Below are positions 12,206-21,219 of a stretch of 64,000 bases of DNA, piece after piece. Source of the DNA: Paracoccaceae bacterium (lineage in GTDB: Bacteria; Pseudomonadota; Alphaproteobacteria; Rhodobacterales; Rhodobacteraceae). Positions within the stretch are counted from its first letter, which is position 1, and the number at the start of each line of letters is the position of its first letter. The position numbers and the translations under genes were made by a program. The stretch is taken from NCBI GenBank assembly GCA_014872875.1, contig WKFI01000021.1:124001-188000 (forward strand), written 5' to 3'. The notes under the pieces were generated by a model. The model made no database searches. It worked only from the letters and a program-made list of their open reading frames with translations, and had not been told where the DNA came from.

Positions 12206-14053
12206 TCAATCGAACCGTCTAAGCACATTGGCTAGCCAGGGACGTTCGACCTCGGTCCCCTGATACATCGCGTGAAGGAAGCTGTGCGCGGTTGCCGGAT
12301 CGCTGGAGAAGGGGAAGCGGTGCAGGTGGGTTTCGTCAATCTCCTGCGCGGCCTCATAGATCACTTCGTCCTCTTTCACCGTTACCAGCACGCTCAGGTC
12401 CGCGATGGTTTCTGGATCGACGGCGGTGGGGTCGGCTGACAGGATCACGAAATCAGCCAGTTTGCCGACTTCGATGGAGCCTTTGTCAGCCTCCTCGAAA
12501 TGCTGATAGGCGGGCCAGAGCGTCATGGCTTTGAGCGCGGTCAGCGCGTCCACCCGCTGATGAGGCCCCAATATGTCGCCCGATCGGGTGCGGCGCGTGA
12601 CCGTTGCCCCCATCACCCTCATACTGTCCGGGAACGCGACAGGGGCGTCGTGATGGGTGCCGAACATCATGCCGCGGGTGCGAATCCAGCCGGTGGGCGA
12701 GATGTTTTCGGCGTTGATCGGCCCGACCGTGTGATCGCGGTGCCAGTCGCCCCAATAGAAGGTGTGCATGGGGAAGACCGACGGGAAGATGCCCAGCCGC
12801 TGCAGGCTGTCTACCTGATCTTCGCGCAGGAACTGACCATGGATCAGGACCGGACGGTTGTCCGCGTCCGGGTATGTCTGTTGCGCGGCGTCGATGGCTG
12901 CGATCAGCATGTCTGACGCGCCTTCGCCATTGGAATGGGTGATGATTTGCAGGTTGTTTTCAAAGCACCAATTGGTTGCGTCCCGCAACTGCTCCATGGT
13001 GATCGCGGCATAGCCTGCGTAGCCGGGCGGGTAATCTCCGACCGGATCGTAATAGGGACGGTCGCGCAAAGCAGTGAAGCCTTGCGGGGAGCCGTCGATG
13101 GTCAGTTTGCATCCGCCGACCCGAACGCCGTTTTCATAATCGCGCGAGGCGTTGGCCCCGATATAGTCGCGGGCTTCCAGCACATCCGGGAAGGCCACCA
13201 CGTCAATCGGCAGATCCCCGGCGGCCGCCACTTCTTTCAGGACCTCGACAATCTGTCCCGAAGACCGCCCCTCTTGCGCGGTGGTATAGCCGAAACGCGC
13301 CCACATCTGGCTTCCGGCCTTGGCAAATTCGCGCAGGCCATCTGGGCCCAGATTACCGATCATCGGCACCAGAGCGGCAAAGAAGGCGTATTCCTCCAGC
13401 ACGCCATCAGGTTCACCGGTTTCATCCTTGCGGATCACGCCCCCCGGAGGCGCCTTGGTGTCAGCATTGATACCGGCGAGTTCGAGTGCCTTGGAATTTG
13501 CGACGCCAAGATGACCGGATTGGTGGACGATGATGATCGGAACATCGGTTGAGACCGCGTCAAGGTCCTGACGGGTGGGATGGCGCAGCTCGGCCAGTTG
13601 CGCGTTGTCATAGCCAAAGCCGATGATCATGTCGGTCCGGGCCACGGTATCCGCATTGTCTTCGGCCCAGTTCCGAAGTGTTTGCTGCAGGCTGGCAATA
13701 TCAGTCACGTCGCCATCCGGCGGCGCCAGCAGGTTGGCGGACAGTGCCTGAAGCCCGCCCATGACCACATGGCCGTGACTGTCCACGAAGCCGGGTATCA
13801 TGGCCCGACCTGCCAGATCGAACATCCGGGTGTTGTCGGCCTTGTATCGGGTCAGATCCTGCAGTGTGCCCACGGCAAGGATGCGCCCGTCCTTGGTGGC
13901 GACGGCCTGCACATTTGGCTGGTTGTCGTCCACGGTCAGGATCGGCCCGCCGGAATAGATGGTGTCAGCAGTTTCCTGCGCGAGGGCCGAGGAAAGAGGA
14001 AACACGGCCAGAGACAAAACGAGGGCGGAGGCGCGAAGGGAAAACGGGCGCAT
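12206..14053 (-). CDS. Exported amidohydrolase (YtcJ-like, amidohydrolase family 3)
   Basis: 615-residue metal-dependent hydrolase with a Sec signal peptide (residues 1-23, cleavage after ALA-QE). The mature protein shows the composite beta-sandwich then TIM barrel layout: AMIPGFVDSHGHV with the metal-binding HxH, EEYAFF, a long barrel, and C-terminal SIEVGKLADFVIL of the amidohydrolase sandwich. YtcJ-like enzymes hydrolyse amide or formamide bonds of varied compounds; the substrate here is unknown. AGGAG lies eight bases before the ATG at 14053. Start codons further upstream would destroy the signal peptide. No partner genes adjoin; the convergent neighbour is the 54-aa gene after hemE. Confidence 0.9.
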   Translation of the reverse strand: MRPFSLRASALVLSLAVFPLSSALAQETADTIYSGGPILTVDDNQPNVQAVATKDGRILAVGTLQDLTRYKADNTRMFDLAGRAMIPGFVDSHGHVVMGGLQALSANLLAPPDGDVTDIASLQQTLRNWAEDNADTVARTDMIIGFGYDNAQLAELRHPTRQDLDAVSTDVPIIIVHQSGHLGVANSKALELAGINADTKAPPGGVIRKDETGEPDGVLEEYAFFAALVPMIGNLGPDGLREFAKAGSQMWARFGYTTAQEGRSSGQIVEVLKEVAAAGDLPIDVVAFPDVLEARDYIGANASRDYENGVRVGGCKLTIDGSPQGFTALRDRPYYDPVGDYPPGYAGYAAITMEQLRDATNWCFENNLQIITHSNGEGASDMLIAAIDAAQQTYPDADNRPVLIHGQFLREDQVDSLQRLGIFPSVFPMHTFYWGDWHRDHTVGPINAENISPTGWIRTRGMMFGTHHDAPVAFPDSMRVMGATVTRRTRSGDILGPHQRVDALTALKAMTLWPAYQHFEEADKGSIEVGKLADFVILSADPTAVDPETIADLSVLVTVKEDEVIYEAAQEIDETHLHRFPFSSDPATAHSFLHAMYQGTEVERPWLANVLRRFD

Positions 14054-14196: not shown

Positions 14197-15351
14197 CTAT
14201 TCGGTCAGGGTCCGAGCGATCAGTTCCTTCATGATCTCGTTCGACCCGCCATAGATCTTTTGCACGCGCGCGTCTGCGTACATCTGGGCGATCGGGTATT
14301 CCAGCATGTAGCCATAGCCGCCATGCAGTTGCAGGCACTCATCGACGACGTCGCATTGCATCTGGGTCACCCACCATTTCGCCATCGAGGCGGTGGCGGC
14401 GTCCAACTCTCCCCTCAGGTGTTTTTCGATGCAGTCATCCAGAAATACCCGAGCTACATGGGCGATGGTCTTAACCTCGGCTAGTTTGAACCGGGTATTC
14501 TGAAGCTCGATCAGGGCCTTGCCGAAGGCCTTGCGTTCCGAGGTGTAGGCAACGGTTTCCTCCAGTGCCTTTTCGATCACGGCAGCGCCCCCGAGGGCAA
14601 CCACCAGCCGTTCCTGTGGCAGGGCCTTCATCAACTGATAAAAACCTTGGCCTTCGACCCCGCCCAACAGATTTTCGGGCGGCACGCGGACATTGTCGAA
14701 AAACAGCTCGGACGTGTCCTGGCTTTTCATGCCGATCTTTTCCAGATTGCGGCCGCGACTGAAACCGTCGGCGTTTTCGGTCTCGATCATGATCAGCGAT
14801 ACACCCTTGGCCCCGGCAGACGGATCGGTTTTAGCGACAAGGATGATCAGGTCGGCCTGCTGTCCATTGGTGATGAAGGTCTTGGACCCGTTCACCACAT
14901 ATTCATTGCCGTCGAGCTTGGCCGTCGTTTTGATGTTCTGCAGGTCCGAGCCCGTGCCCGGTTCGGTCATGGCTATGGCGCAGACCATCTCGCCCGATGC
15001 CATTTTCGGAAGCCAGCGTTTTTTCTGATCTTCGGTGCCATAATCCAGCACGTAGCCCGCGCAGATCTGACTGTGGACCGAGTTGCCGAAACCCGAAAAG
15101 CCTGCGGCGCGAAACTGTTCGGTGACTATGACCGCTTCGTGCCGGAAATCGCCGCCCATGCCGCCGTATTCTTCGGGCACCGAGGCACAGAGGATCCCGA
15201 ATTCACCGGCCTTGTTCCAGAAGTCGCGGTCGATATGGCCCTGTTTCTGCCAGTGCTCTTCATGCGGGACCATTTCGTTGGCATAGAAATCACGCAGGCT
15301 GTCCTGCAGCAGGGTCAGTTCTTCGTCCATCCAGGCGGGTGTGTGGGGCAT
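14197..15351 (-). CDS. Acyl-CoA dehydrogenase
   Basis: FAD-dependent dehydrogenase of 384 residues, normal for the short/long-chain ACAD family. Visible motifs: the substrate/flavin loop CAIAMTEPGTGSDL, YVVNGSKTFITNG, the helix PQERLVVALGG, and the C-terminal IYGGSNEIMKELIAR. The last motif lacks Glu at the MCAD catalytic position (GGSNE instead of EGTxQ), so the base is probably in the preceding helix as in long-chain and isovaleryl-CoA dehydrogenases. AAAGGA precedes the ATG at 15351. It is 16 bp downstream of the CoA transferase gene, so the two act together. Substrate unknown. Confidence 0.93.
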   Translation of the reverse strand: MPHTPAWMDEELTLLQDSLRDFYANEMVPHEEHWQKQGHIDRDFWNKAGEFGILCASVPEEYGGMGGDFRHEAVIVTEQFRAAGFSGFGNSVHSQICAGYVLDYGTEDQKKRWLPKMASGEMVCAIAMTEPGTGSDLQNIKTTAKLDGNEYVVNGSKTFITNGQQADLIILVAKTDPSAGAKGVSLIMIETENADGFSRGRNLEKIGMKSQDTSELFFDNVRVPPENLLGGVEGQGFYQLMKALPQERLVVALGGAAVIEKALEETVAYTSERKAFGKALIELQNTRFKLAEVKTIAHVARVFLDDCIEKHLRGELDAATASMAKWWVTQMQCDVVDECLQLHGGYGYMLEYPIAQMYADARVQKIYGGSNEIMKELIARTLTE

Positions 15352-15367
15352 CGGATTGGTCCTTTGT

Positions 15368-16453
15368 TCAGGAGCGTTTGAGTTCGGCGCGGATGGCGTC
15401 ATCGTGTTGGCCGCGGGCCGGGCTTTCCGGCGGCGTCCAGTCTGGTTGGCCCTGGAAGCGGGGGGCAGGCGCGGCGTGCAGAATGCCGTCCGCCTCAACC
15501 CAGGTGTTTCGGGCATTCATTTTGTGTCCCTTGGCTTCGTCCGGGGTCAGAACAGGAGCGACACAGGCATCGGTCCCGTCGAACAGAGCGGCCCAATGGT
15601 CGCGCGGCTGGCTGGCAAAGATCTCGGCCAGCCTTTCGGTCAGCAGGGGCCAGAGCCCCTTGTCAAATTGGCGTTGGAAATCTGGATCGTCAGCCAGCCC
15701 CATCAAATCCAGGAACAGGGCATAGAATTTGGGTTCCAGACACTGCACGGTGATGAACCCGGCGTCGGCGGTTCGGTAGGTGCGGCTCCAATGTGGGCCA
15801 TCCAACAGGCTTTCACCGCGGGTGGGGTGGAAATTCCCGGCCTGCCGGATCGACAGAAGCAGGTTCATCATATGGGCCGAGCCATCATAGATCGCAGCAT
15901 CAACCACAGTACCCTGACCGGTGTCGCGGGCGTTCAGGATTCCGGCCAGTATCCCGACCGCCAGGTACATGGACCCGCCGCCGATGTCACCGACCAGTGT
16001 GGCCGGAGTTTGCGGAACATCGCCGGGGGCAGAGGCGTACCAGAGCGCGCCCGAAAGCGAGATGTAATTCAGGTCGTGGCCGGACGTGTGCGAAAGCGGG
16101 CTGTCCTGACCCCAGCCGGTCATGCGGCCAAAGACCAGCTTGGGATTGATCTGCTGGCAGGTCTCGGGACCGATGCCCAGTTTTTCCATCACGCCGGGGC
16201 GGAAGCCTTCGATCAGCCCGTCGGCGGTGGCGACCAGCGCCTTGAACGTGTCGATGTCGGAGGGATCTTTCAGGTCCAGCGCAATCGATCGTTTGCCCCG
16301 GTCGAGCAGAGACTTCTCCGGCATTCCCGGCGTCACTGCGCCGCCCTTGCGGTGGACGGTGATGACATCTGCGCCCAGATCTGCCAGCAACATGGCGGCA
16401 AAGGGGCCAGGACCCAGACCTTCGACCTCGATGATGCGAATTCCGTTCAGCAT
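15368..16453 (-). CDS. CaiB/BaiF family CoA transferase (or alpha-methylacyl-CoA racemase)
   Basis: Class III CoA transferase fold, 361 residues. The N-terminal VEGLGPGPFAAMLLADLGADVI and DLKDPSD, GLIEGFRPGVMEKLG, and MTGWGQDSPLSHTSGHDLNY blocks are those shared with alpha-methylacyl-CoA racemases (Amacr). In Amacr a His and Asp in this last block do the proton transfer; GHDLNYIS fits. It could either activate an acid by CoA exchange or epimerise a 2-methylacyl-CoA; the second would suit a branched or steroid-like substrate. GGAGAG precedes the ATG at 16453. A hairpin separates it from the SDR gene upstream. Confidence 0.88.
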   Translation of the reverse strand: MLNGIRIIEVEGLGPGPFAAMLLADLGADVITVHRKGGAVTPGMPEKSLLDRGKRSIALDLKDPSDIDTFKALVATADGLIEGFRPGVMEKLGIGPETCQQINPKLVFGRMTGWGQDSPLSHTSGHDLNYISLSGALWYASAPGDVPQTPATLVGDIGGGSMYLAVGILAGILNARDTGQGTVVDAAIYDGSAHMMNLLLSIRQAGNFHPTRGESLLDGPHWSRTYRTADAGFITVQCLEPKFYALFLDLMGLADDPDFQRQFDKGLWPLLTERLAEIFASQPRDHWAALFDGTDACVAPVLTPDEAKGHKMNARNTWVEADGILHAAPAPRFQGQPDWTPPESPARGQHDDAIRAELKRS

Positions 16454-16527
16454 GATCTCTCCTGTTTGTTCGTCGGCCAGTCTAGCCCGGCTTTGGTCGG
16501 GGTGAACCGATTTGACCCCCGCCGGGG

Positions 16528-16550
16528 GCGTTTTCTTGCCAAGAAAACGC
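16528..16550. terminator. Perfect 10-bp hairpin inside the catabolic cluster
   Basis: Inverted repeat GCGTTTTCTT / AAGAAAACGC with a 3-nt loop, between the SDR stop and the CoA transferase start. On the plus strand a T7 run follows nine bases later; in the transcribed minus direction it is followed by C/G-rich sequence, not U. It could be a REP-like element, an mRNA stabiliser or an attenuator that splits the operon in two. Confidence 0.5.
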
Positions 16551-16596
16551 GACGGATTTTTTTGAATTCCGTTCACCGCAGGGCTGTGGGGGCGGG

Positions 16597-17421
16597 TCAG
16601 ATGGTCAGTCCGCCACTGACGATCAGGGTCTGGCCCGAGACATAGTTGCTTTCGGGGATGCAGAAGAGATAGACGCCGCCGGCGGCCTCCTCGACAGTGC
16701 CAGCGCGGCCCATTGGGATCATGGCCTCCATCCCGGCGACCAGTTTCTTCGGGATGCCGACGCCCACCGTGTTGCCGTCCACGTCGATGGATTTCTTTTC
16801 GTCCGTCGCTTCGGTCAGGCGGGTTGCGATCATGCCAAAGGCCACGGCATTCACGTTCACCTTCATCCGGCCCCATTCCTTGGCCATCGTCTTGGTCAGG
16901 CCCACGATACCCGCCTTGGCCGAGGAGTAATTGGCCTGTCCCGCATTGCCGCCGGTTCCGGCGATGGACGATATATTGACCACTTTGCGGAACACCTCGC
17001 GCCCCTCCGCCGCTTCTTCGGCGGCCTGGGATTTGATAAAGGGCGCGGCGGCGCGCAGGATCTGGAACGGCGCTTTCAGATGCACGTCAATCATTGCGTC
17101 GAACTGGGCGTCGGTCATCTTGCCAATGAAGCTATCCCAAGTGTAGCCGGCGTTGTTGACGATGATGTCGATGCCGCCGAACTTGTCCAAACCTGCGCCG
17201 ATGAAATCCTCGGCAAAACCCGGTGCGGTGACGGATCCGGGGATGGCAATGGCCTTGCCCCCCAGCGCTTCGATCTCGGCTACGACCTCGGCTGCGGGAT
17301 CCACGTCCAGATCGTTGAGCACGATGTTCGCGCCATCCGCAGCGAGTTTCAGGGCGATGGCGCGGCCGATGCCACGGCCCGCGCCAGTGATGTAGGCGGT
17401 CTTGCCTGCGAGATTGGTCAT
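16597..17421 (-). CDS. SDR-family 3-hydroxyacyl-CoA dehydrogenase / 3-oxoacyl reductase
   Basis: FabG-like SDR of 274 residues with a complete active site: TGAGRGIG, NNAG, ISSIAG and YSSAK. The C-terminus SGGLTI and an insertion between the active site and C-terminus (DVDGNTVGVGIPKKL) are like the multifunctional-enzyme-type hydroxyacyl-CoA dehydrogenases. In this cluster it would oxidise the 3-hydroxyacyl-CoA made by the MaoC pair, with NAD(P). AAAGGAC lies about 12 bases before the ATG. It is 22 bp downstream of the MaoC gene on the same strand. Substrate unknown. Confidence 0.92.
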   Translation of the reverse strand: MTNLAGKTAYITGAGRGIGRAIALKLAADGANIVLNDLDVDPAAEVVAEIEALGGKAIAIPGSVTAPGFAEDFIGAGLDKFGGIDIIVNNAGYTWDSFIGKMTDAQFDAMIDVHLKAPFQILRAAAPFIKSQAAEEAAEGREVFRKVVNISSIAGTGGNAGQANYSSAKAGIVGLTKTMAKEWGRMKVNVNAVAFGMIATRLTEATDEKKSIDVDGNTVGVGIPKKLVAGMEAMIPMGRAGTVEEAAGGVYLFCIPESNYVSGQTLIVSGGLTI

Positions 17422-17443
17422 GGTGCCAAATGTCCTTTGAGTG

Positions 17444-17857
17444 TCAGGAAAGGGTGATGATGGCCTGTCCGGTCAGCTTGACGTCGCCATGCTGATCGGC
17501 GGCCTGAATTTTGAGTTTGATCTGGTTGTCCGGCAGTTTCTCGACCACCTTGCCGGAACAGGTGATCACGGCGTGTATCTGGGTGATCGCCACGAACCGG
17601 GTCGAAAACTCGCGGATCGCGGTCTGTGGGACCCAACCGGTCAGAAGGCGGCCCAGATAGGCCATGCCCAGCATTCCGTGGGCAAACACATCAGGCATTC
17701 CGGCCTGTTTGGCAAAGTCGATGTCGATATGGATCGGGTTCTGGTCTCCGGACGCGCCGGCAAACAGCGCCAGGGTCGTGCGTGAGATCGGTTTGGTGGT
17801 CAGGGGCGGCAGGGTATCGCCCGGTTGAACGTCCTCGTATCGGGGTAGGGCGGTCAT
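17444..17857 (-). CDS. MaoC-like (R)-enoyl-CoA hydratase, catalytic hot-dog subunit
   Basis: 137-residue single hot-dog protein. The hydratase-2 signature AGASGDQNPIHID is intact, with the catalytic Asp38 and His43. Adds water to trans-2-enoyl-CoA giving an (R)-3-hydroxyacyl-CoA. Its ATG overlaps the stop of the next MaoC-like gene by ATGA, so the two are translationally coupled and probably form a heteromeric double hot-dog, as known for ChsH1-ChsH2 type hydratases that accept bulky substrates. The pairing here is inference from context. Confidence 0.9.
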   Translation of the reverse strand: MTALPRYEDVQPGDTLPPLTTKPISRTTLALFAGASGDQNPIHIDIDFAKQAGMPDVFAHGMLGMAYLGRLLTGWVPQTAIREFSTRFVAITQIHAVITCSGKVVEKLPDNQIKLKIQAADQHGDVKLTGQAIITLS

Positions 17858-18306
17858 TGCGGATGCCTCACCACCAGGGTGCGGGTCATGCTGCCCACAT
17901 CCTGGCCATTCTGGTTTGCGGCACTGGTCTTGAGGATCACGAACTCCATGGCTCCGGCCTTCTTGTCATAGATGTCTTCCACTGCCGTGGTCAGTGTGAT
18001 GGTGTCCCCGGCACAGATCGGCGTGCCATAGGTGAAATGTTGTTCGGCGTGCAGGACACGGGCCAGGTCGATCTTCATCAGGTCGATGAAGTAGAACGGA
18101 TCGTCGCGTTCCAGATCCAGCGAGAACAGGAAGGTCGGTGGTGCGGGCAAGGCCGCATAGCCTGCCGCACGGGCCGCGTTTTCGTCGGTATATGTCTGGT
18201 CCGTGGCGCCGGTGGCCTTGGCAAAGGCGCGCAAGCGGCCCTTTTCGACATCCACGCTCAGCGGTTCAAAGCGATGCCCGATCAGGGAACGGTCTATCAT
18301 GGTCAC
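17854..18306 (-). CDS. MaoC-like N-terminal type (FAS1-dehydratase-like) hot-dog subunit
   Basis: 150-residue protein of the MaoC_dehydrat_N type: IGHRFEPLSVDVEKGRLRAF at the N-terminus, YTDENAAR, LPAPPTFLF and LHAEQHFTYGTPICAGDTI. It lacks the Asp/His hydratase motif of its partner, as expected for the structural half that shapes the acyl-binding tunnel. Stop and start codons overlap with the thiolase gene upstream and the MaoC gene downstream, so three proteins are made from a tightly coupled message. Function as a heteromer with the 137-aa protein is inferred. Confidence 0.88.
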   Translation of the reverse strand: MTMIDRSLIGHRFEPLSVDVEKGRLRAFAKATGATDQTYTDENAARAAGYAALPAPPTFLFSLDLERDDPFYFIDLMKIDLARVLHAEQHFTYGTPICAGDTITLTTAVEDIYDKKAGAMEFVILKTSAANQNGQDVGSMTRTLVVRHPQ

Positions 18307-19487
18307 TGAGCCTGATACATTGTGACGACACAGGCACCGCCCAGTCCCAGATTGTGCTGTAGCGCGGTGCGGGCGCCGTCTACCTGGGTGGTGCCGGCTG
18401 TACCGCGCAGCTGCCGGGTCAGTTCATAGCATTGGGCCAGACCGGTTGCGCCCAGCGGGTGACCTTTGGACAAGAGCCCGCCCGAAGGGTTCGTCACGAC
18501 CTGTCCGCCATAGGTGTTGTCGCCGTCGGCAATGAACTTGGGTGCGCCACCTTCAGGGCAGAGCCCCAGGCCCTCGTAAGTGATCATCTCGTTATGAGCG
18601 AAACAATCATGCAGTTCGACCACGTCAACGTCCTCGGCACCAATGCCGGCCTGGTCAAAGACCTGTCGGGCGGCCTCGGCGGTCATGTCATAGCCGACTA
18701 CGCGCATCATATCGTGGCTTTCGAACGTGCTGGGCGTGTCGGTGGTCATGGACTGACCGATGACCCGAACCTTAGTGTCCAGACCATGTTTCCGGGCATA
18801 GTCTTCACTGACCACGATGGCGGCGGCGGCTCCGCAGGTGGGCGGGCAGGCCATCAGCCGGGTCATGACACCGTCCCAGATCATCGGCGCGTCCAGCACG
18901 TCTTCGGGCGTGACCTCGGCCCGGAACAGGGCCAGTGGGTTGTTGACCGCGTGGCGGCTGGCCTTGGCGCGGATGCGGGCCAGATCGGTGAGGGTGGAGC
19001 CGTATTTCTCCATATGAGCCTTGCCCGCACCACCGAAATAGCGCAGCGCCAGCGGGATTTCGGACTGGCCGACCAGATCGTCGGTTTCTTTGTCGAACAG
19101 CTCGAACGGATCCACCCTGTCGGTGAAGTTCGAACCTAGAGCACCCGGCCGCATTTCCTCGAACCCTACAGCAAGGGCGACGTCCACGACGCCCGCTTCA
19201 ACTGCCTGGCGCGCCAAATAGAGCGAGGTCGAGCCGGTGGAACAGTTGTTGTTGACGTTGATCACCGGAATGCCAGTCATGCCTACATCATAAATCACCC
19301 GCTGCCCGCAGGTGCTGTCACCATAGACATAGCCTGCATAAGCCTGCTGCACCGCGTCATAGCTGATCCCGGCATCGGTCAGCGCGTCCCGGATCGCGGC
19401 GGCGCCCATTACGGGATAGGGTTCATTGGCGCCGGGTTTGGCAAATTTGGTCATGCCGACACCGGCGATAATTACGTTCTGGGACAT
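18303..19487 (-). CDS. SCP2/SCP-x type thiolase (lipid-transfer protein family)
   Basis: 394-residue thiolase of the sterol-carrier-protein type without a fused SCP2 domain. Active-site residues are all present: nucleophile Cys82 in NNNCSTGS, ELHDCFAHNE, and the final GGLLSKGHPLGATG His loop. Retained Cys82 argues for real thiolysis rather than the aldolase activity of Ltp2-like relatives, which lack it. It would release acetyl- or propionyl-CoA in the last step of the cluster's beta-oxidation. A strong GGGAGGAG precedes the ATG. First gene of the minus-strand operon, divergent from tetR. Confidence 0.92.
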   Translation of the reverse strand: MSQNVIIAGVGMTKFAKPGANEPYPVMGAAAIRDALTDAGISYDAVQQAYAGYVYGDSTCGQRVIYDVGMTGIPVINVNNNCSTGSTSLYLARQAVEAGVVDVALAVGFEEMRPGALGSNFTDRVDPFELFDKETDDLVGQSEIPLALRYFGGAGKAHMEKYGSTLTDLARIRAKASRHAVNNPLALFRAEVTPEDVLDAPMIWDGVMTRLMACPPTCGAAAAIVVSEDYARKHGLDTKVRVIGQSMTTDTPSTFESHDMMRVVGYDMTAEAARQVFDQAGIGAEDVDVVELHDCFAHNEMITYEGLGLCPEGGAPKFIADGDNTYGGQVVTNPSGGLLSKGHPLGATGLAQCYELTRQLRGTAGTTQVDGARTALQHNLGLGGACVVTMYQAQ

Positions 19488-19511
19488 GGTGGCTCCTCCC
19501 GCAGGGGTGAA

Positions 19512-19580
19512 TTACACTTGGGAGTTACTTTCGGTGAGGGCTGTGCAAGTGGTCAAGAACTGTGTAACTGATGAGTGTAA
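19512..19580. promoter_or_regulatory. Candidate TetR operator region
   Basis: The 126-bp divergent gap between the thiolase and TetR genes carries GTGTAA at 19562-19567 and 19575-19580 and its inverse TTACAC at 19512-19517, plus GTTAC (19524-19528) facing GTAAC (19564-19568). Repeated inverted elements of this kind between divergent genes suggest regulator binding to both promoters. The exact operator is not certain. Confidence 0.4.
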
Positions 19581-19613
19581 TAACCACGCGTCAGATACGG
19601 CTGGAGGGCCGGG

Positions 19614-20273
19614 ATGGGAAACAAGGCCTGGTCTGAAAACACCGGTGATCGCACTGAGCAGCGCGAATCGAAGCGGCGGGCCGTGCTGATGGCGGGGGCG
19701 CGTTTGTTCAATGATCAGGGGTACGAGCAGACCTCGCTCGAGGACATTGCAGAAGCGCTGAATATCACCAAGCGGACGATCTATTATTATGTCCAGAGCA
19801 AGGAAGAGATCCTGTTCGAATGCCAGCAGCTGGGGATGGAGTTTCTTCGCGAAACACTGGAGCAGTGTTACGATCACAGCATTCCGGTGGTCCGGCGGAT
19901 TCGCCTGTTGGTCGAGGGCTACTGCGCCTGGGTGTGTACTGATCTGGGGGCTTGCGCGCCGTTGGTGCGCGAGGTCAGCCTGTCGCAGGAAAGGCGTAGT
20001 GCCTTGCGGCAGGGGCGCAGGCAGCTGGACCATTTGTTACGCGAGATGATCGGGGAAGGTGTCAAGCAGGGTGCTTTGAAACCCTGTGATCCACGTTTGA
20101 TGGCTTCGGCCATTTTTGGAGCGCTGAACTGGGTGCCTTATTGGAATCGCGGCGATCAACAATTGCCGCCCGAACAGATCGCTGACGCTTACCTGGCCAT
20201 GATCACGGGCGGCTTGGTGCCGGTTTCCGGTTTTGAAGTCGGCGATGATCCAGTCGGGACCGATCGGGGCTGA
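19614..20273 (+). CDS. TetR-family transcriptional regulator
   Basis: 219-residue repressor type. The HTH is at about residues 40-62 (TSLEDIAEALNITKRTIYYYVQSKEE), a textbook TetR recognition helix. The C-terminal ligand domain resembles the KstR2/FadR-like group with a TetR_C lid, which often binds acyl-CoAs. GGAGGG precedes the ATG. It is divergent from the thiolase operon and 85 bp upstream of the crotonase gene, so it likely represses both until an acyl-CoA intermediate binds. The ligand is not predictable. Confidence 0.92.
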   Translation: MGNKAWSENTGDRTEQRESKRRAVLMAGARLFNDQGYEQTSLEDIAEALNITKRTIYYYVQSKEEILFECQQLGMEFLRETLEQCYDHSIPVVRRIRLLVEGYCAWVCTDLGACAPLVREVSLSQERRSALRQGRRQLDHLLREMIGEGVKQGALKPCDPRLMASAIFGALNWVPYWNRGDQQLPPEQIADAYLAMITGGLVPVSGFEVGDDPVGTDRG

Positions 20274-20358
20274 AATCCCAGCCGAACTCCGTGACGCGGC
20301 GTTGGATTTGTGGCGCGGGTAACCCCATGCCAGTTTTCCAAAAATAGGGGAGGAACCC

Positions 20359-21219
20359 ATGTCCACAATCCATTACGAAAAAGACGGTCGCATTGCGCGG
20401 ATCACCTTGAACCGACCCGAGGTGCGCAATGCCATCAATGACGAAATGCCTTTGGAAATTGCTGAGGCGGTGGCCCGTGCCGATGCCGACCCGGACGTAC
20501 ACGTGATGGTGTTGTCGGGTGCGGGGGAAGCGTTTTGTTCCGGATACGATCTTACATATTACGCCGAAGGCAACGGATCAGGTGAGGCAACCCAGCCAAT
20601 GCCCTGGGATCCGATCAAGGATTACAGCTTCATGTGGCGCAATACCCAGCATTTCCTGTCGATCTGGCGGGCGATGAAGCCGGTGATCTGCAAGGTGCAT
20701 GGGTTTGCGGTGGCGGGTGGGTCGGACATTGCGCTGTGCGCCGATCTGACAGTCATGGCCGATGATGCACTAATCGGATACATGCCCGCGCGGGTCTGGG
20801 GCTGCCCGACCACAGCGATGTGGGTTTACCGGCTGGGGGCCGAGAAGGCCAAGCGTATGCTGTTCACGGGCGACAAGATCACCGGTCGCGAGGCCGCCGA
20901 CATGGGGCTGGTCCTAGAGGCCGTTCACGCCGATGCGCTGGACGACCGGGTCGAGGCACTTGCGGCCCGCATGGCGACCGTCCCTATCAACCAACTTGCG
21001 ATGCAGAAGATGGTCATCAATCAGGCGATCGAGCAGACAGGCATGATGCAGACGCAGCGGTTGGCGACGATCTTTGACGGGATCACCCGGCATTCTCCCG
21101 AAGGCATCAACTTCAAGACCCGATCCGAGGAGGTCGGGTGGAAACAGGCCGTCGAGGAACGCGATCACGGCACCTTTGACTGGACGCAGAACTGCGAGAT
21201 CCCGAAAGGCAACCGCTGA
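20359..21219 (+). CDS. Crotonase-family protein with altered catalytic residues
   Basis: 286-residue enoyl-CoA hydratase/isomerase fold. The oxyanion-hole segments are recognisable (GEAFCSGYDL about 56-64; HGFAVAGGSDIAL 114-126). The two hydratase glutamates are not conserved: the first position is Asp123 (GGSDIAL) and the second falls in PAR (143-145) instead of PEV. It also has a longer insert and C-terminus than E. coli FadB-type hydratases. It may be an isomerase, hydrolase or decarboxylase rather than a hydratase, which fits a cluster that already has a MaoC hydratase. AGGGGAGGAA lies before the ATG. Confidence 0.87.
   Translation: MSTIHYEKDGRIARITLNRPEVRNAINDEMPLEIAEAVARADADPDVHVMVLSGAGEAFCSGYDLTYYAEGNGSGEATQPMPWDPIKDYSFMWRNTQHFLSIWRAMKPVICKVHGFAVAGGSDIALCADLTVMADDALIGYMPARVWGCPTTAMWVYRLGAEKAKRMLFTGDKITGREAADMGLVLEAVHADALDDRVEALAARMATVPINQLAMQKMVINQAIEQTGMMQTQRLATIFDGITRHSPEGINFKTRSEEVGWKQAVEERDHGTFDWTQNCEIPKGNR

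Follow-up and report, generated by a model that had tools for sequence, protein, structure and literature searches.

A predicted alpha-methylacyl-CoA racemase and SCP2-type thiolase gene cluster, probably for methyl-branched acyl-CoA degradation, in a Paracoccaceae bacterium

Which substrate is degraded by a compact set of acyl-coenzyme A (acyl-CoA) enzymes encoded around a divergent tetR gene in a Paracoccaceae bacterium? We analysed a 64,000-nucleotide stretch of assembly GCA_014872875.1 (hereafter the window; contig WKFI01000021.1, positions 124,001 to 188,000), which is part of contig C5 in a 4.76-Mb genome assembled into 26 contigs. The cluster occupies positions 14197-21219 of the window. 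All the genes named there by an earlier first-pass annotation are present around tetR with intact frames (starts are the likely ones, read from the frames), and Pfam backs every family assignment. That annotation had called the substrate unknown; we narrow it, short of proof, to a 2-methyl-branched and probably isoprenoid acyl-CoA. On balance, we think that the cluster converts 2-methylacyl-CoA, with isoprenoid acids as its probable source, to propionyl-CoA plus a shorter acyl-CoA. Isoprenoid acids are our best guess, with other branched or bulky acids as possible substrates. At the level of enzyme families, a racemase, a dehydrogenase, an R-specific hydratase, a 3R-dehydrogenase and an SCPx-type thiolase appear to be encoded together, in keeping with the earlier description of a full beta-oxidation round assembled from parts used for branched or bulky chains.

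The thiolase gene (18303-19487, minus strand) encodes 394 residues and lacks an SCP2 domain. Its product matches zebrafish SCP2-thiolase type 1 with 459 bits, and the next different solved relative scores 207. The NNNC, HDCF and GHP motifs are invariant across nine aligned Rhodobacteraceae thiolases (alignment A1), the window's included; the alignment covers nine of 11 such proteins, with those of L023 and L025 left out. Nearest match and motifs both point to an SCP2-type 1 thiolase.

The CaiB-fold protein (15368-16453, minus strand) matches the Mycobacterium tuberculosis racemase MCR (1x74) with 305 bits, whereas the best solved non-racemase, YfdE (4hl6), reaches 122. Counted along the alignment, His126, Asp156 and Glu241 of MCR each face the same residue in the window protein; these are the catalytic residues named in PMC10967716. 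Motif counts were taken from the frames of 90 loci, namely the best 80 of at least 571 confirmed thiolase loci from other genomes, among which close relatives are over-represented, and 10 more. Among related racemase frames in these loci, the GHD-x-N motif around the His is kept in 25 of 25 and the pattern of the Asp segment in 22 of 25. We therefore rejected a CoA transferase, given the two scores and the retained His/Asp/Glu set, and by sequence the protein is predicted to be an alpha-methylacyl-CoA racemase (AMACR). The earlier label, a CaiB/Amacr-type transferase, holds for the fold family and fails for the transferase role.

The remaining enzymes fit between these two activities. The acyl-CoA dehydrogenase (14197-15351, minus strand) scores almost equally against human LCAD (8w0t, 398 bits) and the structure of an uncharacterised bacterial protein (2pg0, 397 bits). 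Aligned to 8w0t, it shows LPQER and YGGSNE, that is, a Gly where other family members carry the Glu of YEG; LCAD-type enzymes carry their catalytic Glu in LPQER rather than in YEG. Among 31 related frames, LP-x-ER occurs in 29, YEG in none and the YGG pattern in only nine, and structure match and motif together suggest an LCAD-type enzyme. The predicted hydratase is split over two adjacent genes, supported by Pfam, structure matches and motif scans: the MaoC subunit (17444-17857, minus strand) is HadB-like and carries the GD-x-NP-x-H motif as SGDQNPIH, and its FAS1_DH/MaoC-N partner (17854-18306, minus strand) is HadA-like and lacks it. The same division appears in related frames, with the motif in 29 of 30 catalytic subunits and in 0 of 30 partners. 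For the short-chain dehydrogenase/reductase (SDR; 16597-17421, minus strand), the best solved relative is yeast MFE-2 (2et6, 200 bits summed over two stretches), followed by a FabG-type enzyme (166 bits). It is a probable (3R)-3-hydroxyacyl-CoA dehydrogenase, of either MFE-2 or FabG subtype.

Peroxisomes rely on SCPx alone to cleave branched chains, and they require AMACR for chains with a 2R-methyl group (PMC8919083). From these roles and the same kinds of enzyme in the cluster, we infer a 2-methylacyl-CoA route together with its stereochemistry. An acyl-CoA ligase encoded elsewhere would make the CoA ester, and AMACR would interconvert its 2R and 2S epimers. The LCAD-type dehydrogenase would then form the 2-enoyl-CoA, the hydratase, with one catalytic and one inert subunit, would add water R-specifically, and the SDR would oxidise the 3-hydroxyl. 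Finally, the thiolase would cleave the 2-methyl-3-oxoacyl-CoA to propionyl-CoA and a shortened acyl-CoA. Two proteins of the same genome score above the methylmalonyl-CoA mutase cut-off and could take up the propionyl-CoA. Two PhyH-family proteins, also encoded there, were set aside as a clue to alpha-oxidation.

How far does this combination extend beyond the window? At E<=1e-90 the thiolase is found in 11 of 198 Rhodobacteraceae genomes, including this one. We counted neighbouring genes in the 80 thiolase loci using thresholds of our own choice (for example at least 40% identity for AMACR), and scored loci that end at contig ends as lacking the missing genes. The counts are 24 loci for AMACR, 30 for the dehydrogenase, 29 for the catalytic MaoC, 41 for the SDR and 17 for a ligase of one family, with AtuA or a carboxylase pair in 20; thiolase, MaoC, SDR, dehydrogenase and AMACR are all present in six. 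In the 24 loci, AMACR lies no more than 10 kb from the thiolase, and 21 of them also hold the same type of dehydrogenase. Because 15 of these 21 (11 from Massilia) have no MaoC or SDR above the thresholds, racemase and thiolase look like the core of the module; one of the 15, L092, has an SDR at 45%. The full set occurs at 45-62% identity on plasmids of Cupriavidus oxalaticus and Rhodococcus pyridinivorans, both typed as conjugative and both with AMP-binding ligases nearby. On the Rhodococcus plasmid the racemase stands some 6 kb from the far end of the other genes, behind ligases and crotonases. The thiolase-MaoC-SDR part is also found in Solimonas. Many Proteobacteria carry the module, as do plasmids from two phyla. 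The first-pass annotation knew of no named pathway with exactly this set; that view has to be revised, since the set is the branched-chain beta-oxidation combination and recurs in Proteobacteria and on plasmids. As a separate observation, the thiolase is carried on plasmids of Pseudosulfitobacter pseudonitzschiae, to which 34 of 85 matching plasmid records belong. An alga is given as the source in 18 of the 19 records listed for this species (the sources are presumably diatom genera), a possible link to algal isoprenoids.

Within the cluster, the minus-strand genes read away from tetR in the order thiolase, FAS1_DH/MaoC-N subunit, MaoC subunit, SDR, AMACR and dehydrogenase, and the plus strand carries tetR (19614-20273) followed, 85 bp downstream, by a crotonase-fold gene. 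From thiolase to SDR, consecutive genes share 4 bases or are spaced by 22 bp, and 16 bp separate AMACR from the dehydrogenase. One transcript for the whole minus-strand run is likely rather than firm, because SDR and AMACR are parted by a 143-bp gap with an inverted repeat. This repeat (16528-16550) is perfect, with 11-bp arms and 1 base between them, and its full form was not found in 11 related hemE or AMACR loci. Promoter-like matches are no more frequent than chance (3 against 3.0).

Control by TetR, as had been proposed, gains support from two inverted 18-bp sites that lie between the divergent starts. Across the 4.76-Mb genome, the motif ATTACACT-N4-AGTTAC is matched exactly at two places only, which stand inverted to each other in the 126-bp gap between tetR and the thiolase gene. 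Predicted operator 1, ATTACACTTGGGAGTTAC (19511-19528, plus strand), precedes the thiolase start by 24-41 bp; predicted operator 2, ATTACACTCATCAGTTAC (19564-19581, minus strand), precedes the tetR start by 33-50 bp. The pair was picked up by a k-mer count and missed by a repeat search with a distance limit of 40. Allowing up to two mismatches, the window holds only these two sites against 0.04 expected, and 0 of 100 shuffles had two. What can fairly be counted as evidence is that 14 fixed letters repeat and that the rest of the genome contains no exact copy. A similar TetR (34-38%) is divergent from the thiolase in six of the 80 loci, and among 11 further loci inspected for repeats, L034, L051 and L071 have perfect six-letter inverted repeats near the thiolase start; the same test found none in the other eight. 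The predicted operators imply a local switch, in which TetR would bind the two sites, one ahead of each divergent gene, and would be released by a CoA ester or acid of the pathway.

Does the crotonase-fold gene downstream of tetR (20359-21219, plus strand) belong to the same pathway, as the first-pass annotation assumed? It probably does not encode a step of the module. Aligned to 5zai, the protein, of PRK08272 type, shows Pro and Arg at the positions of the two crotonase glutamates, and lacking both active-site glutamates it is not expected to act as a catalytic crotonase. None of the 80 thiolase loci holds it at >=45% identity, and we rejected it as a module step. Of 149 Rhodobacteraceae genomes, 15 encode it at E<=1e-60, six of these with 83-84% identity; in G031, G038 and G110 it lies near both hemE and AMACR. 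In G031 and G038, AMACR and crotonase are divergent neighbours beside hemE, 133 and 141 bp apart, and no thiolase was found at E<=1e-90; G031 further retains the HxlR and hydrolase genes that come next in the window. Here, a block of about 3.9 kb (SDR-MaoC-MaoC-thiolase-TetR) stands between AMACR and crotonase. We place the crotonase in an older hemE-AMACR-crotonase locus, which two relatives have kept without the thiolase.

In eight of the 39 AMACR-bearing genomes among the 149 searched, this genome being one of the eight, AMACR is within 5 kb of hemE, which was not found in two of the 39 (G009 and G136). Four loci (L018, L029, L035 and L037) have a block at hemE in a different gene order, and the window-type crotonase was not found in the stretches covered. 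In the thiolase tree, the window groups with L028 (NORP86), and a single origin of the hemE-locus thiolases appears in 12% of 200 bootstrap trees, compatible with one origin or two. L028 has the closest thiolase (80%) and, beside hemE, only thiolase and AMACR; MaoC, the module SDR and the dehydrogenase were not found within its 21-kb stretch. Between hemE and the dehydrogenase, the window also encodes a YtcJ-like amidohydrolase with a signal-peptide-like start (12206-14053). We rejected it as a part of the module; it occurs in 0 of 80 related thiolase loci and is probably unrelated.

What links the cluster to isoprenoids, and where is the CoA ester made? When mcr is mutated, cells no longer grow on rubber or on methyl-branched isoprenoids (Arenskotter 2008, as cited in PMC8538451). 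One locus, L068, combines the full set with AtuA (incomplete, at the locus end), a biotin carboxylase and two ligases, and in L031 and L059 AMACR occurs together with carboxylases. Other Rhodobacteraceae carry thiolase and SDR within AtuA/carboxylase clusters that lack AMACR at >=40% identity. Such clusters would tie the thiolase to isoprenoids, not to 2-methyl branches. AtuA and a geranyl-CoA-type carboxylase are not among the proteins of the cluster; AtuA is encoded elsewhere in this genome, and the strain may have an Atu-type pathway there. By eye, AtuA is followed by two acyl-CoA carboxylase-like frames on contig C15 (G000:C15, L133 10799-16236). A further 18 Rhodobacteraceae AMACR neighbourhoods, three of them at hemE, gave no hint of the substrate.

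As the first-pass annotation had noted, the cluster has no ligase: a Pfam scan of 10 proteins in and beside it found none. For its corollary, that the ester is made elsewhere, we can point to a candidate. The L068 ligase has one clear relative in this genome, 51% identical, at G000:C2:745269-746834 (the next is 34% identical), with no genes of the module families within about 9 kb. In Rhodobacteraceae this ligase accompanies AMACR in seven of 10 ligase genomes, compared with 39 of 149 overall (hypergeometric 0.003, or 0.009 without this genome, kinship not being corrected for); an eleventh ligase genome, G153, is outside the 149 searched for AMACR. Since the ligase tracks AMACR and not the thiolase, we infer its role as a lead only. 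Co-occurrence of ligase and thiolase was considered and rejected, there being hardly any overlap.

Several observations weigh against a dedicated 2-methylacyl-CoA route. AtuA/carboxylase clusters that lack AMACR at >=40% identity also contain the same thiolase, which by itself is thus no proof of a 2-methyl substrate; AMACR joins such thiolase clusters in only three of 80 loci. At E<=1e-100, AMACR is present in 39 of 149 Rhodobacteraceae genomes, many of them without the thiolase, which at E<=1e-90 occurs in 11 of 198. Among the 198 genomes, 11 have the ligase and 11 the thiolase, and just two have both: this genome and G153, with a ligase of 44% identity. For the hydratase subunits, the nearest solved relatives are HadB and HadA-like proteins of mycobacterial fatty-acid synthesis, with weak matches to the peroxisomal hydratase; the SDR is almost as near to FabG as to MFE-2. 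The operator motif came from a look at this very region, and with up to two mismatches it has four matches genome-wide (the two exact copies and two with 2 mismatches) against 10 for the backward control, such that only the exact copies stand out. The motif search of the genome did not find the predicted operator at the distant ligase gene.

These points have to be set against what other explanations can account for. The module neighbourhoods are very diverse and may serve several substrates, as would be expected if the cluster degraded other bulky or ring-bearing chains, such as aryl-propionates or cyclic terpenoid acids, with the racemase acting on alpha-substituted CoA esters. The LCAD-type dehydrogenase and SCP2-type-1 thiolase instead suggest long aliphatic chains, and AtuA or carboxylase neighbours occur in 20 of the 80 loci; we consider this explanation unlikely. 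Degradation of sterol or bile-acid side chains, where AMACR and SCP2-type thiolases also act, is in our view quite improbable. Some Burkholderiales loci do have a thiolase-MaoC-SDR block beside paired distant acyl-CoA dehydrogenases (22-28% to the window's), pairs that presumably resemble steroid-type heteromers, and the same enzyme types process bile-acid precursors in peroxisomes (PMC8919083). Consistent with the earlier remark that steroid ring genes are absent, this genome has no KshA_C match, which makes steroids less likely, although this single marker would miss anaerobic or unusual routes and 0 of 14 control genomes exceeded the cut-off, leaving it without a positive control. In addition, no DUF35 partner or steroid ring gene was found among the cluster-region proteins scanned.

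Could the cluster instead consist of two unrelated neighbours, a thiolase-MaoC-SDR-TetR block with a substrate of its own having been acquired separately from an old hemE-AMACR-crotonase locus? AMACR and crotonase beside hemE without thiolase in G031 and G038 speak for this, as does the thiolase tree, which shows a single origin of the hemE-locus thiolases in only 12% of the bootstrap trees. Yet in 20 of the 24 AMACR loci, as well as on plasmids, AMACR and thiolase are paired at sites other than hemE, so the pairing recurs, and we regard two separate units as very unlikely. Only slightly more remote from what we would expect is that the CaiB-fold enzyme is a CoA transferase activating the substrate in place of a ligase. 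It belongs to the CoA_transf_3 family (Pfam), and of the seven NCBIfam models that match it six are transferases and the seventh an isomerase, with no racemase; these scores, however, are far below their cut-offs, and the racemase match and conserved catalytic set given above oppose them. We thus retain the 2-methylacyl-CoA route, and tentatively place it within a broader picture that we hold to be less likely than not: a bacterial module, uncharacterised and in part carried on plasmids, that handles 2-methyl-branched isoprenoid acids (e.g. from chlorophyll phytol or pristane), with an AMACR-thiolase core and optional dehydrogenase, split hydratase and SDR, spread over alpha- and betaproteobacteria and an actinobacterial plasmid. 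In the window, the module would have assembled around a resident racemase-crotonase pair and been tied to TetR by twin operators, the crotonase, now behind the same regulator, taking on a new role.

The chemistry is known, and the operon itself appears to be uncharacterised. We recognised no description of such an operon in the open-licence literature, as covered by titles, abstract openings and term counts, with most subscription papers outside this scope. By term search, racemase and MaoC are absent from the main texts of a proteomic study of Alcanivorax on pristane (PMC6850023) and a transcriptomic study of Dietzia on pristane (PMC12472514). If the proposed route is correct, it would provide a testable gene set for the consumption of methyl-branched isoprenoid acids, from chlorophyll side chains and oil, by Proteobacteria including marine Rhodobacteraceae, as well as bacterial models of the human AMACR/SCPx pathway. 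A racemase gene beside an SCP2-type thiolase gene would then serve as a marker, where current annotation reads 'CaiB/BaiF CoA-transferase' and 'lipid-transfer protein'.

Among known systems, the steroid side-chain systems Shy/Sal (PMC11321319, PMC12329534) and ChsH1/ChsH2 also combine MaoC hydratases with thiolase-fold enzymes. Unlike these, the cluster has no DUF35 partner, its genome has no KshA match and its thiolase is nearest to SCP2-type 1. ChsH1/ChsH2 is linked to Ltp2. The Atu/Liu pathway for acyclic terpenes (PMC4097962) likewise degrades isoprenoid acyl-CoA and adjoins the same thiolase in some relatives; however, Atu carboxylates a methyl group, whereas AMACR fits 2-methyl branches, and the window cluster contains neither the carboxylase nor AtuA. 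Actinobacterial Mcr-dependent catabolism of isoprenoids and rubber (PMC8538451) also employs AMACR for methyl-branched isoprenoids. It belongs to another phylum and its published link is mcr, yet the Rhodococcus plasmid has the full set. The animal peroxisomal branched-chain pathway shares with the cluster its kinds of racemase, R-hydratase and thiolase, and probably of 3R-dehydrogenase. It has an oxidase where the cluster encodes a dehydrogenase nearest to mitochondrial LCAD; in the cluster, hydratase and 3R-dehydrogenase are separate proteins, the hydratase is split and HadAB-like, the thiolase lacks the SCP2 domain, and the whole set is gathered in one bacterial gene cluster with a TetR regulator.

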